A stretch of DNA of 64,000 nt from Jiangella ureilytica (GTDB lineage: Bacteria > Actinomycetota > Actinomycetes > Jiangellales > Jiangellaceae), in assembly GCF_004348545.1 (NCBI RefSeq), contig NZ_SMKL01000029.1, forward strand, positions 1 through 64,000, read 5' to 3'. Shown one piece after another: positions 27,041 to 31,440 of this stretch (the stretch's first letter is position 1; every line of letters begins with the position of its first letter). Under the pieces are notes generated by a model. It was not told where the DNA came from. It was given only the letters and a program-made list of their open reading frames with translations, and made no database searches. The position numbers and the translations under genes are program-made.

Positions 27041-27043
27041 CGT
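27038..27043 (+). promoter_or_regulatory. -10 box of the DinB gene
   Basis: TAGCGT, 7 nt before the ATG at 27051. The box includes the TAG stop codon of the upstream RidA gene. Confidence 0.45.
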
Positions 27044-27050
27044 GACGGCC

Positions 27051-27635
27051 ATGCCGGACGAGAAGGACACCCTCAAGCGCTACCTGCAGGCCCAGCGCGA
27101 CGCGCTGCTGTGGAAGCTCGACGGGCTGGGCGAGCGCGACGCGCGCTGGCCCATGACGCCCACCGGCACCAACCTGCTGGGGCTGGTCAAACACGTCGGC
27201 AGCATGGAGTACGACTACTTCGGGCTGGTCTTCGACCGTCCCAAGCCCGAGCCGATGCCCTGGCTCGACGACGACGCCGAGGCGAACGCCGACCTCTGGG
27301 CGACGGCGGACCAGTCGATCGAGTGGGTGGTCGGGTTCTACCGTCGCGCCACCGCGCACGCCGACGCCACCATCGACGCGCTAGCGCTCGACGACACCGG
27401 CTCGGTGCCGTGGTGGCCCGAGGAGGGACGGCAGGTCACCCTGCACCAGATCCTCGTGCACATGATCGCCGAGACCGCCCGGCACGCCGGCCACGCCGAC
27501 ATCGTCCGCGAGACCATCGACGGCGCCGCCGGCCTGCGCGACGGCGTCTCCAACCTGCCCGACCAGAACGCGCAGTGGTGGGCCGACTACGTCGAGAGGC
27601 TGAAGCGCACCGCCGAGGAGGCCGCGCGCGACTGA
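27051..27635 (+). CDS. DinB-family (DUF664) four-helix protein
   Basis: 194 aa. DinB/YfiT-like metal-dependent fold: LLGLVKHVGSMEYDYFGLVF gives the first His ligand and LVHMIAETARHAGHADIVRE gives the HxxxH-type pair on the last helices. Members include thiol S-transferases (mycothiol- or bacillithiol-dependent) and uncharacterised proteins; in an actinomycete a mycothiol link is plausible but not shown. ATG at 27051 is chosen over GTG at 27042. Convergent with the ABC exporter gene, 10 nt apart, with no obvious terminator. Confidence 0.85.
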   Translation: MPDEKDTLKRYLQAQRDALLWKLDGLGERDARWPMTPTGTNLLGLVKHVGSMEYDYFGLVFDRPKPEPMPWLDDDAEANADLWATADQSIEWVVGFYRRATAHADATIDALALDDTGSVPWWPEEGRQVTLHQILVHMIAETARHAGHADIVRETIDGAAGLRDGVSNLPDQNAQWWADYVERLKRTAEEAARD

Positions 27636-27645
27636 CGGCGGCCGG

Positions 27646-29412
27646 TCACGCCTGCGCCGTGCCGTGCCACGAGGCCCAGAGCGCGGCATAGGCGCCGCCC
27701 GCGGCGACCAGCTCGTCGTGCGAGCCCAGTTCGACGATCCGCCCGGCCTCCATGACGGCGATCCGGTCGGCGTCGTGGGCGGTGTGCAGGCGGTGCGCGA
27801 TCGCGATCACCGTCCGCCCCGCCAGCACCGCCGCCAGCGACCGCTCCAGGTGCCGCGCCGCCCGCGGGTCCAGCAGCGACGTCGCCTCGTCGAGGATCAG
27901 CGTGTGCGGATCGGCCAGCACGAGCCGGGCCAGCGCCAGCTGCTGTGCCTGCGCGGGCGACAGCTCCACCCCACCGGTACCGACCGCCGTCGACAACCCG
28001 AGAGAAGACGCCCAGGACCACGCGTCGACGGCCCGCAACGCCGATTCCACTGCGGCATCCGAGGCCGACGGCCGCCCCAGCAGCACGTTGTCGCGCAGCG
28101 AGGCGCGGAACACGTGGTGCTCCTGCGTCACCAGCGCGACCTCGGCGCGCAGCTCCTCCAGCGAGAGCGCTCCCACTGGGACGCCGCCGACGGTGATGGT
28201 GCCGGCCCGCGGCGCGTGGATGCCGGCGATCAGCTTCCCGAGCGTCGACTTCCCGGCCCCGGACGGCCCGACGACGGCGAGCCGCTCGCCGGGCGCGATG
28301 CCGAGCGAGACGTCGTGGAGCACGTCGTGTCCGGCCCGGTAGGCGTGGCTCACCCCGCGCAGCTCCACCGCGGCGGACCCAGCGACGACGGCGTCGGCCC
28401 GCGGACCGCGGGACTCACCCGAGGCCGCCGCCGGGGACCGGCCGACGCCGCGCAGCCGGGCCATCGCCGCGCCACCGATCTGCACCTCGTTCAGCCAGAA
28501 CAGCAGCGTGTCGACCGGGATCAGCAGCTGCTGCGTGTACAGCGTCGCGGCGGTCACGGCGGCCAGCGACGCCATGCCGTCGAGGTACAGCAGCCCGCCC
28601 ACGACCAGCGTCGCGACCACCGGCAGCACGAACGCGACGTCGATGGTCGGCAGGTACACCGTGCGCAGGCGCATGGTGTAGTGCTCGGCCGCGGACGACG
28701 CCGCGATGTCGTCGTCGACCCGGGCCGCCCGCCGCCCGCCCAGCCGCAACGCCTCCACCGTCCGGGCGCCGTCGACGGTCTCCGCCAGGCCCTCGGCGAG
28801 CCGCGAGTACGACGCGTTCTCGCGCAGGTAGCCGTCGCGCGCCCGGCGCAGGTACCAGCGCGTCGCCGCCCACAGGATCGGCACCGCGACCAGGCAGGGC
28901 AGCGCCAGCAGCGGCCCGAGCAGCACCAGCCCGCCGAGCGTCAGCACGATCGTCACCGCGCTGATCAGGGTGTCCGGGATCGCGTACCGCACGGCGCGGG
29001 CCAGCAGGTCGACGTCGCGGGTGGTGCGGGTGACGAGGTCGCCGGTGCCGGCCTCCTCGACCGTCCCGAGCGGCAGGGCGAGGACGCCGTCGACGAACTC
29101 CTCGCGCAGCCGGGCCAGCACCCGTTCACCGAGCCGCGCCGACACGAACATCGCCAGCCCGGTCAGCACGGCCTGTGTGGCGACGAAGACGCAGATCAGC
29201 GCGGTCACGCGGCCCACGTCGTCGACGCCGGCGCTGACGGCCTCGACCAGCCGGCCGATCAGCCACGGCCCGGCCAGCCCGGACGCCGCGCCGAGCGAGT
29301 GCAGCGCGACGGCGACGGCCAGCTCCCGCCGGTGCCGCAGCGCCAGCCGGCGGGCGTGGCGGCGCACCTCCCGCACCGACGCGACCGGCAACCCGGGAGA
29401 CGCCTCGTTCAC
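27646..29412 (-). CDS. ABC exporter half-transporter with intact Walker motifs but degenerate signature
   Basis: 588 aa: six membrane helices (about 30-310) and a nucleotide-binding domain (about 345-580). Walker A GPSGAGKST and Walker B TLILDEATSLLD with catalytic Glu are intact, and the switch His is in AIAHRLH. The signature, normally LSGGQ, reads LSPAQ. The partner gene overlaps upstream by 4 nt. In a heterodimer this subunit would supply the nucleotide-binding half of the single competent site, with the partner supplying SGGQ. Substrate unknown; possibly lipids, drugs or a peptide. GTG start at 29412. Confidence 0.88.
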   Translation of the reverse strand: MNEASPGLPVASVREVRRHARRLALRHRRELAVAVALHSLGAASGLAGPWLIGRLVEAVSAGVDDVGRVTALICVFVATQAVLTGLAMFVSARLGERVLARLREEFVDGVLALPLGTVEEAGTGDLVTRTTRDVDLLARAVRYAIPDTLISAVTIVLTLGGLVLLGPLLALPCLVAVPILWAATRWYLRRARDGYLRENASYSRLAEGLAETVDGARTVEALRLGGRRAARVDDDIAASSAAEHYTMRLRTVYLPTIDVAFVLPVVATLVVGGLLYLDGMASLAAVTAATLYTQQLLIPVDTLLFWLNEVQIGGAAMARLRGVGRSPAAASGESRGPRADAVVAGSAAVELRGVSHAYRAGHDVLHDVSLGIAPGERLAVVGPSGAGKSTLGKLIAGIHAPRAGTITVGGVPVGALSLEELRAEVALVTQEHHVFRASLRDNVLLGRPSASDAAVESALRAVDAWSWASSLGLSTAVGTGGVELSPAQAQQLALARLVLADPHTLILDEATSLLDPRAARHLERSLAAVLAGRTVIAIAHRLHTAHDADRIAVMEAGRIVELGSHDELVAAGGAYAALWASWHGTAQA

Positions 29413-31115
29413 GCCGCCCCCTCCTCACGGGCGACCAGCCCGCGGTAACGCGGGTCGGCCAGCAGCGACGCGTGGGTGCCGACGGCGACCGCTCGGCCGC
29501 CGTCGACGAGCACCACCTCGTCGGCGTGGTCGAGCAGGATCGGGCTGGTGGCGAAGACGATGGTGGTCCGCCCGGCCCGGGCGGCGGCCAGGCGGGCGGC
29601 GATGCGGGCCTCGGTGTGGGCGTCGACGGCGCTGGTCGGGTCGACCAGCACCAGCACGTCGGGCGAGGTCAGCACGGCCCGGGCCAGCCGGAGCCGCTGC
29701 TGCTGGCCGCCGGAGAACTCCTTGCCGCCCGCGGTCACGACGGTGTCGAGGCCGTCGGGCAACGCCTCGAGCACGTCCGCCGCCGACGCGACCTCGATGG
29801 CCGCCAGCAACCGCGAGTCATCACCAGCGACAGCGCCGTCCGCCGTCAGCTCCGCCCGCAGCGGCCCGGCGAACAGCTTCGCCTCGTTGCCGGCCACGAG
29901 GATGCGCCGCCGCACCTCGTCCAGCGCCGCGTCGCCCAGCGGCACCCCGCCCCAGGTCACCTCGGACGGGACGTACCGCCCCAGCCGGTCGGCCAGCTCG
30001 GCCGCGTCGGCGGGCGCCGTGCAGGCCACGCCGGTGAACCCGCCAGCCTTCACGACCAGCTCGGACGCCGGGTCCACGAGGTCGCCGCCCACGGGCGGCG
30101 CCGCCGAGCCGCCGCCGTCGATCGACGGCGTCAGCGCCAGCAGCGCGACCACCCGCCGCGCCGCCACGTAGCCCTTCGTCACCGCGCTCGCGAAGACCGT
30201 GATCCGCCGCACCGGCGTCCCCAGGAACACCGCGTAGCCGTAGAACGCGACCAGCTGGCCGGCGGTGAGGTCGCCGGCCAGCGCCGACCGCGCGCCGAGG
30301 AACACGACCAGCGCGACCAGCAGCCCGGGCAGCAGCATCCGCGCGCTCTCGAACACCGCCTCGGCGGCCGCGAGGCGCACGCCGGCGTGCCGGACCCGCT
30401 GGGACTCCGCGTGGAAGCGGCGCGCGAACAGCTCCTCGCCGCCGATGCCGCGCAGGACCCGCAGCCCGCCGACGATGTCGACGGCGTGCGCGCTCAGTTC
30501 CGCCTGCTGGTCGCGCAGCCGCGCCTGCCGGTCGTGCATCGGCCGCAGCAGTGCCCCGACCGCCCAGACCATGACCGGCACCCCGGCCAGGACGACCAGC
30601 CCGAGCTCCCACGACGTCGCGAGCATGACGGCGGCCACCACGCCGATCGCGACGACGGAGCCGATGCCGCGCGAGCTGAGGTCCAGCGCCCGGCCGAGTT
30701 GCAGCACGTCGGCCACACCGACGCTCATGACCTCGCCGGCCGACGTCTTCCGCGGCAGCGTCGCGCCCAGCCGGGCCGCCTGCCGCGTGACCAGCTGCAA
30801 CGTCCGGTACCGCGCCCCGAGCGCGTTGGTCAGCGCGCACCGGTCCTGCAGGATGCCGGCCGCCGCCTGGAGCACTCCCAGCGCCAGCACCACGCCGGCC
30901 CAGAGCAGCAGGTCGCCGCGGTCGCGCCCGGTGAGACCGTCGTCGACGGCGCGGCCCACGGCGTACGGCATCAGCGCCTGCGCCGTCGGCCAGAGACAGC
31001 CGTAGAAGGCGCCCAGCAGGACCACGCCCAGCTGGGTACGTGCCAGCCAGAGCAGGTAGTGGCCGGGGGTCAGGCGGCTCGGCTCACCGGGGTCCGCGTC
31101 GGGGAAGCGCCGCAC
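29409..31115 (-). CDS. ABC exporter half-transporter lacking Walker A and catalytic Glu
   Basis: 568 aa from GTG at 31115 (frame open to 31262). Six membrane helices occupy the first 310 residues. The nucleotide-binding domain has intact signature FSGGQQQRLRLARA, but the Walker A position reads GVACTAPADAAELADRLG with no GxxGxGKS/T, and Walker B reads VLVLVDPTSAVDA, with Pro where the catalytic Glu should be. It therefore cannot hydrolyse ATP by itself and must depend on the 27646 partner, which has the opposite defect. The stop overlaps the partner's start. A TTGCCG-N17-TAGAGT promoter lies just upstream. Confidence 0.88.
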   Translation of the reverse strand: MRRFPDADPGEPSRLTPGHYLLWLARTQLGVVLLGAFYGCLWPTAQALMPYAVGRAVDDGLTGRDRGDLLLWAGVVLALGVLQAAAGILQDRCALTNALGARYRTLQLVTRQAARLGATLPRKTSAGEVMSVGVADVLQLGRALDLSSRGIGSVVAIGVVAAVMLATSWELGLVVLAGVPVMVWAVGALLRPMHDRQARLRDQQAELSAHAVDIVGGLRVLRGIGGEELFARRFHAESQRVRHAGVRLAAAEAVFESARMLLPGLLVALVVFLGARSALAGDLTAGQLVAFYGYAVFLGTPVRRITVFASAVTKGYVAARRVVALLALTPSIDGGGSAAPPVGGDLVDPASELVVKAGGFTGVACTAPADAAELADRLGRYVPSEVTWGGVPLGDAALDEVRRRILVAGNEAKLFAGPLRAELTADGAVAGDDSRLLAAIEVASAADVLEALPDGLDTVVTAGGKEFSGGQQQRLRLARAVLTSPDVLVLVDPTSAVDAHTEARIAARLAAARAGRTTIVFATSPILLDHADEVVLVDGGRAVAVGTHASLLADPRYRGLVAREEGAA

Positions 31116-31215: not shown

Positions 31216-31440
31216 ATGAAGATCACGCGCTGGCCGATCGAGTCGTCCGCGGTGCGGACCATGGGCTACGACGCCGAGTCGTCGACGCTGGAGGTCGAGT
31301 TCAGCTCCGGCGACGTGTACCGCTACTACAGCGTCGCTCCCGCGGACGTCGAGGGCCTCATCCTGGCCGACAGCAAGGGCACCTTCATTAACCAGGTCAT
31401 CAAGCCCCGGTACCGGTTCCGTCAGGTCGGCGGGTCCTGA
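31216..31440 (+). CDS. KTSC-domain protein
   Basis: 74 aa, essentially one KTSC domain: SSAVRTMGYDAESSTLEVEF, SGDVYRYYSVAP and SKGTFINQVIKPRYR. KTSC domains bind nucleic acid or accompany lysyl-tRNA-synthetase-like proteins; stand-alone copies are of unknown role. ATG at 31216, with no clear Shine-Dalgarno site. Divergent from the ABC exporter. Confidence 0.82.
   Translation: MKITRWPIESSAVRTMGYDAESSTLEVEFSSGDVYRYYSVAPADVEGLILADSKGTFINQVIKPRYRFRQVGGS

Follow-up and report, generated by a model that had tools for sequence, protein, structure and literature searches.

Can an ATP-binding cassette (ABC) exporter be built around a nucleotide-binding domain (NBD) from which the Walker A motif has vanished altogether? 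The question is raised by two overlapping genes on the minus strand of contig NZ_SMKL01000029.1 of Jiangella ureilytica (assembly GCF_004348545.1), whose positions 1 to 64,000 make up the stretch analyzed here (the window). The first gene encodes a half-exporter, B, that keeps a canonical signature and lacks Walker A, and the second encodes a half-exporter, A, that keeps Walker A and has a degenerate signature. We propose that the two probably form an obligate heterodimer, an ABC exporter in which a single composite ATP site remains and the other has been dismantled and holds no nucleotide. Behind this proposal stand motif losses that are both reciprocal and conserved, the pairing of the genes and the single clade of the stripped halves, each of which is evident in the alignments and the tree. 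The genes and the motifs on which the argument turns are as follows.

31115..29409, minus strand: B half, GTG start, 568 amino acids; six-helix transmembrane domain (TMD) followed by a stripped NBD; predicted signature donor
30042..30080, minus strand: B residues 346-358, which lack the A-loop strand that a normal NBD has here (model and joint alignment)
29997..30023, minus strand: B residues 365-373, former P-loop CTAPADAAE, modelled as a two-residue turn into a helix
29985..29987, minus strand: B Arg377; Arg in 122/126 B halves, Leu in 8/8 first halves of classical, Walker A-bearing pairs
29703..29714, minus strand: B residues 468-471, signature SGGQ, predicted to be donated to the complete site
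29640..29654, minus strand: B residues 488-492, Walker B LVLVD, with Asp replaced by Val and Glu by Asp
29622..29633, minus strand: B residues 495-498, D-loop SAVD; Asp in 126/126 B halves
29541..29549, minus strand: B residues 523-525, TSP at the H-loop site; Ser524 in 126/126 B halves, Arg in 8/8 classical first halves
29412..27646, minus strand: A half, GTG start, 588 amino acids; complete Walker A and B, Q-loop and H-loop; degenerate signature
28243..28269, minus strand: A residues 382-390, Walker A GPSGAGKST
27949..27963, minus strand: A residues 484-488, former signature LSPAQ
27886..27900, minus strand: A residues 505-509, Walker B LILDE
27787..27801, minus strand: A residues 538-542, H-loop IAHRL

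Reciprocal motif losses in the gene pair

The genes, whose coordinates the initial annotation had given correctly, run in the order B then A, the start of A overlapping the stop of B by 4 bases. The alignments use the 568-residue form of B and leave out an alternative upstream start at 31262 (617 amino acids). Each protein is a TMD-NBD half-exporter, with PF00664 followed by PF00005, both above cut-off in Pfam; the PF00005 match of B begins only at profile position 42 of 137, and NCBIfam gave no model at cut-off for either protein among the best 25 matches for each. The P-loop that marks each NBD of a type IV half-exporter is present in A and absent from B.

The initial annotation had described B as having SGGQ and no Walker A, and A as having a good Walker A and Walker B with LSPAQ for a signature, which in a head-to-tail pair leaves one composite site complete and the other dead. 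This description and its logic stand: GxxxxGK[ST] is absent over the whole of B and SGGQ is present, and GPSGAGKST, LILDE and LSPAQ can be read in A, the Q-loop (TQE) and H-loop (AHR) of which are also intact. What does not stand is the reading of a proline in place of the Walker B Glu of B, which is a register slip. When VLVLVDPTSAVD of B is aligned with the canonical hhhhDEPTSALD, Val stands for the Walker B Asp and Asp for the catalytic Glu, and the Pro (LVLVDPTSAVD against LVLDEPTSALD) is the residue that often follows Glu. The losses of B also go further than had been described: neither the H-loop His (now T523) nor the Q-loop Gln or the A-loop strand remains, and the D-loop Asp is kept.

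Conservation of the pattern among relatives

Relatives were collected in two ways. A similarity search of 60 related genomes (E <= 1e-60) gave 58 matches in 38 genomes, of which 47 were fetched and 10 paralogues from the genus were left out; with the window protein these make 48 B halves, a set free of selection by signature pattern. Walker A is found in 0/48 of these B halves and SGGQ in 48/48, and their partners have Walker A in 47/47 cases and LSGGQ in 0/47, the partner of the remaining B half lying beyond a contig end. A scan of named genomes by signature and D-loop patterns found at least 580 relatives, of which the best 80 of 580 were kept, and because these were found by those patterns the conservation of signature and D-loop among them is partly built in. 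Pooling the two sets and removing 2 duplicates left 126 distinct B halves, including that of the window, and 124 partner calls, one of which (L144) was excluded as an unrelated ABC protein on the opposite strand, the true partner being beyond the contig end. The A partner adjoins B at 123/126 loci, the other 3 being cut by contig ends, and the estimated gap is -35 to 50 bases in 111/123 pairs.

The initial annotation had named a normal Walker A in homologues of the 29409 gene as the mark of local decay or sequencing error; we looked for one and found it in 0/126 distinct B halves (GxxxxGK[ST] over each protein). The search for homologous pairs with the same losses, which it had also suggested, shows the pattern shared by 126 B halves and 123 A partners. 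The H-loop His is likewise missing from every B half (0/126), SGGQ is present in 125/126 (SGGE in L102) and the D-loop Asp is invariant. Among the A halves, Walker A is present in 123/123 and LSGGQ in 0/123, so that the distribution of Walker A between the two halves (0/126 vs 123/123) is far beyond chance. Each of the 126 B halves is a single open frame that spans the profile nearly end to end. Among 20 extra loci, 12 hold further stripped members with no Walker A in B, and the remaining 8 are classical pairs. In one pair, from a metagenome-assembled genome of the Nocardioidaceae (L102), both signatures are changed, to SGGE in B and LSAGQ in A.

Segment conservation was measured as mean weighted entropy in bits over 126 B and 122 A halves (L144 and L093 dropped). 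In B the signature (0.24) and the D-loop (0.25) are among the best conserved segments, and the former Walker A (2.15) is more variable than the average of the whole protein (1.80), with the former Q-loop at 2.11. In A the Walker A is highly conserved (0.30), with Walker B at 0.40 and the H-loop at 0.15, and the former signature (1.64) is about as variable as the whole protein (1.68). Pairwise distances among A halves follow those among B halves (r = 0.947 over 122 pairs; the highest value in 500 shuffles was 0.107), a correlation partly expected from shared species history.

Codon changes among 12 members of the genus (median ratio of nonsynonymous to synonymous rates, dN/dS, over 66 pairs) gave for B 0.32 in the TMD, 0.37 in the NBD, 0.20 from signature to D-loop and 0.27 in the former P-loop, and for A 0.34 in the TMD, 0.22 in the NBD and 0.14 in the former signature. 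These values indicate that purifying selection acts on B within the genus. With Walker A missing throughout, the reciprocal conservation and the correlated distances, they support the view already taken in the initial annotation, namely that this is a stable specialized pair and not a decaying one.

Origin of the stripped pair

The closest Walker A-bearing relatives that we found are the 8 classical pairs (L210-L212 and L214-L218), which have the same gene order as the stripped pairs. Their first gene combines SGGQ with a P-loop and a Walker B of the LDDATSAVD type, and their second a P-loop and a DEATSNLD-type motif with an LSAGE-type signature; Walker A is kept in 8/8 of the first halves examined. 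In a tree of 76 rows, made by a quick method and rooted at the midpoint, the stripped first halves (B) all group together with support 100, next to the classical first halves (90); the stripped second halves (A) likewise fall into a single clade (100), next to the classical second halves (89). Given this grouping of the stripped halves, the loss seems to have happened only once, and the ancestor was probably a classical degenerate pair that then lost its second site.

Within the stripped clade a side branch, S, comprises L081-L084 together with the majority of stripped loci in the 20-locus extra set, the window pair belonging to the main branch. B halves of the S branch have lost the P-loop and the A-loop turn and retain the A-loop strand. 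The A halves of the S pairs examined have an altered D-loop (EATAEAGS or DESTAEAG), which would serve the dead site. Arg377 is found in 122/122 main-branch B halves and in 0/4 S members among the 126, and Arg513 and Ser524 in 126/126 B halves vs 0/8 classical first halves. The appearance of these new conserved residues is why the dead site looks rebuilt instead of only worn down.

Predicted structure of the former site

The model of B (pLDDT 92.8, from a 60-row alignment) has a strand at 360-365, a two-residue turn and a helix at 368-379 at the place of the P-loop, where the model of A (pLDDT 86.4) runs from a strand at 377-381 over a loop of six residues into a helix that starts at 388. As modelled, B would have no phosphate loop left. 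The strand that bears the A-loop aromatic is absent in 7/7 main-branch B halves shown in the joint alignment, and the linker that crosses its position is at most 44 residues long in 100/122 main-branch B halves, 47-48 in 4 side-branch halves and at least 47 in A.

In fold comparison, chain A of MsRv1273c/72c is the top Foldseek match of B, and TM287/288, MsbA, EfrCD, TmrAB and others come next; the VIA-align rows differ by no more than about 2 Z units and do not rank families. By profile, the half-transporter chains are ranked with BmrC (YheI) first and then TM287, BmrA and MsRv1273c/72c chain A close together, and all are outscored by ABCB1-type full transporters, which match over two stretches. 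We take BmrC, TM287 and MsRv1273c/72c chain A to be the degenerate halves, in part from chain length; BmrA is a homodimer.

Proposed cycle and alternative explanations

The complete site (site 1) would consist of the Walker A, Walker B Glu, Q-loop and H-loop of A together with the SGGQ and D-loop of B, and the second (site 2), made of the Walker A, Walker B, Q-loop and H-loop positions of B and the signature position of A, would hold no ATP. Neither half makes a complete site with itself, so heterodimerization would be enforced. One ATP would be bound and hydrolyzed per cycle, at site 1 only; on the dead side the NBDs would be held by protein contacts, perhaps those of B Arg377, Arg513 and Ser524, with no ATP acting as glue, and hydrolysis at site 1 alone would drive the TMDs to expel a small molecule. 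Arg377 might pair with the Walker B acid of B. Such a predicted single-ATP cycle is the simplest reading of the motifs. On balance we also favor the broader proposal that these pairs are a natural family of single-nucleotide exporters, in which the second site has been rebuilt as a protein-only NBD contact through Arg377, Arg513 and Ser524 and a glue ATP is dispensable.

Several observations weigh against this interpretation. The Q-loop Gln is retained in 2/126 B halves, and the Walker B acid pair, which is Val-Glu in 73 B halves and of other kinds in 17, is still Asp-Glu in 36/126. The catalytic Glu position holds Glu in 115/126 B halves and Asp in 11/126, including the window protein; loss of the Glu is therefore not defining for the family, and its retention is odd for a nucleotide-free site, where it may have a structural role. 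Two A signatures, LSAGQ in L102 and LSDGQ in L130, are one residue from canonical. The dN/dS values for the stretches where B once had its P-loop and A its canonical signature imply that these remnants are constrained too and not free to drift, support for the sister relation to the classical halves is moderate (90 and 89), and common history accounts for part of the A-B correlation. Some copies look broken, the A half being partial or split in L093 and L109 and the L203 pair spread over several frames; these are broken genes or draft errors, and the partial A halves of L093 and L109 still carry Walker A. Biochemistry on any family member was not found in the literature searched. As a separate observation, the catalytic Glu position (residue 492 of the window B, 29640-29642) that holds Glu in most stripped B halves holds Asp in the 8 classical first halves.

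The best placed alternative, which we nevertheless consider unlikely, is that the pair works as a classical degenerate-site exporter in the manner of TM287/288, BmrCD or Rv1273c/72c, with site 2 binding an unhydrolyzed glue ATP through replacement residues. The branching of the stripped lineage beside classical degenerate-site exporters would fit such a cycle, the widely kept Walker B Glu and Arg377 (in 122/126) could contact phosphates, and Pdr5 binds ATP at its deviant site despite a Lys to Cys change in Walker A (PMC7756269, PMC8421411). However, the P-, Q- and H-loop residues that would hold the nucleotide are gone from B, the A signature opposite them is altered, and the A-loop strand is also absent from each of the seven aligned main-branch B halves; moreover, the former Walker A region is conserved below average across the family and the B model contains no phosphate loop.

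A second alternative would make B a regulatory or scaffold subunit outside the active pump, with A powered together with another half-transporter. B has no Walker A of its own, and its genome offers possible substitutes: besides a second stripped pair, it encodes several exporter halves and many further ABC NBDs. This arrangement is nonetheless very improbable: A lacks a canonical signature and so needs a donor, and B conserves exactly that; the genes adjoin and co-vary; and B keeps a full transmembrane domain. Finally, local decay, a pseudogene or a sequencing error in the 29409 gene, which the loss of several catalytic motifs in one gene might suggest, was rejected on finding the same loss in all 126 B halves, and the open frames, the purifying selection and a neighboring gene conserved at 11/11 genus loci make it almost certainly wrong.

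Distribution, neighborhood and possible cargo

The predicted single-site exporter family is widespread among actinomycetes and is present in many of their families. Matches at E <= 1e-118 occur in 178/393 genomes sampled from the class; this threshold sits in a gap between stripped halves (at least 417 bits) and classical halves (at most 378 bits), the 178 are counted by this score and not by their individual motifs, and, as a shortened stripped member scored about 360 bits, fragments are missed. The best 80 of 580 named loci and 9 plasmid records are all actinobacterial, other phyla's genomes not having been searched separately, and the genera among the named loci include Streptomyces, Micromonospora, Nonomuraea, Actinoplanes, Nocardioides, Kribbella, Cellulomonas and others. 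J. ureilytica itself has two stripped pairs, the second of which (L038, contig C108) is 47% (B) and 57% (A) identical to that of the window, making mixed heterodimers between the two pairs possible. Upstream of the stripped pair at five loci (L071, L116, L117, L118 and L131) is another exporter pair, encoded on the same strand and with its Walker A motifs intact, and at L111 only the second half of such an upstream pair falls within the fetched DNA; this subgroup includes several named Streptomyces.

All six window neighbors scanned have a Pfam match (L-PSP endoribonuclease, mycothiol-S-transferase, LacI, glycoside hydrolase, FAD oxidoreductase and dihydrodipicolinate synthase, DHDPS), and none of the six is a gene of siderophore biosynthesis or uptake. 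The gene next to the pair on its downstream side is the following.

27042-27635, opposite strand, convergent with the pair: mycothiol-S-transferase, DinB superfamily (PF04978)

It adjoins the pair in 11/11 genus loci and, although encoded on the opposite strand, may hint that mycothiol conjugates are exported. For the main branch, neither a conserved operon partner nor a hint at cargo emerged from the 73 neighbors of named loci scanned with Pfam (from 118 listed, short ones already excluded, with genes called by a GC-codon heuristic): the neighbors are diverse and the commonest family, MarR_2, accounts for only 5/73, and so they give no pointer to cargo. On a plasmid of Streptomyces globosus (L195), a stripped main-branch pair lies by dpgA-C, a glycine amidinotransferase gene and radical S-adenosylmethionine genes for a ribosomally synthesized and post-translationally modified peptide.

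The S branch has a more telling neighborhood. With one to a few neighbors scanned at each locus, a siderophore-type gene is found at 10/12 S-branch loci scanned (L206, L209 and L213 were left out of the scan), at L202 only through a formyltransferase; L083 and L204 have none among the neighbors scanned. Two S-branch B halves, L208 and L209, from two genomes of one genus, have no partner within 3 kilobases, and a wider fetch located the A partner about 11 kilobases away on the same strand (loci L219/L220 and L222). Between the split halves lies a giant open frame of the nonribosomal peptide synthetase (NRPS) type, 3661 amino acids long in one genome and with adenylation and carrier domains at its end in the other, so that the genes stand in the order A half, NRPS-type frame, B half and esterase (the esterase identified in one of the two genomes, G386). 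Near the G386 copy are genes for an ornithine/lysine N-hydroxylase and a siderophore-type uptake ATPase, both named from best NCBIfam matches below cut-off, as well as a Peripla_BP_2 protein and an enterochelin-esterase-like gene. The side branch most likely exports hydroxamate-type siderophores, judging by these neighbors. The arrangement matches the coelichelin cluster layout CchG-CchH-CchI, and the split pairs are likely a coelichelin-type exporter. The resemblance of the exporters CchG and CchI is to these two S loci; the window pair is of the main branch, with no adjacent siderophore gene seen.

Relation to known exporters and implications

Like the type IV heterodimers MsRv1273c/72c, TM287/288, BmrCD and TmrAB, the stripped pair has two halves with one consensus and one degenerate composite site. 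It shares with the classical type one complete and one impaired site and a degenerate signature in the partner. However, the degenerate half of the classical type keeps its Walker A, and 0/126 B halves do; the catalytic Glu, which the classical type replaces, is Asp in the window B yet Glu in most of the family. The stripped pair can be regarded as a variant of the degenerate-site heterodimers that fails to keep Walker A and should share their composite-site logic.

In MsRv1273c, of the pair MsRv1273c/72c, Asp occupies the Glu position and Gln takes the place of the H-loop His; the degenerate site binds ATP through the Walker A of this half, and cryo-electron microscopy work proposes that this ATP acts as glue (PMC12038006). 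In contrast, the P-, Q- and H-loop residues are all gone from the stripped half, and the window B is also without the A-loop strand. Pdr5, which has one active site, belongs to the PDR subfamily, called the most extreme case (PMC8421411), with ATP still held at its deviant site. It differs in being a full-length protein with the NBD before the TMD, an arrangement not found in the separate, TMD-first A and B, and in having a Walker A, in which Lys is changed to Cys. By its motifs, the stripped family is more extreme than Pdr5. One NBD of the human ABCB5 beta isoform is said to be without the Walker A region (PMC3029322), but this is one isoform, with two NBDs, and no family of conserved genes whose partners show a matching loss. 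Atratumycin Atr29 is described with conserved motifs (PMC6835768). A bacterial exporter family with one half lacking Walker A was not found in the literature searched, which left most subscription journals outside its coverage, and a look-up of RamA/RamB and StrV/StrW led nowhere.

The role of the second, non-hydrolyzing ATP in asymmetric ABC exporters is an open question, and a 2020 review speaks of 'unclear functional advantages' (PMC7756269). A family that lost Walker A and yet kept its pump across many actinomycete families would be a natural experiment on whether a second ATP is needed. If the proposed single-site cycle holds, these would be one-ATP ABC exporters, and the S-branch pairs beside siderophore genes would supply a cargo with which they could be assayed.

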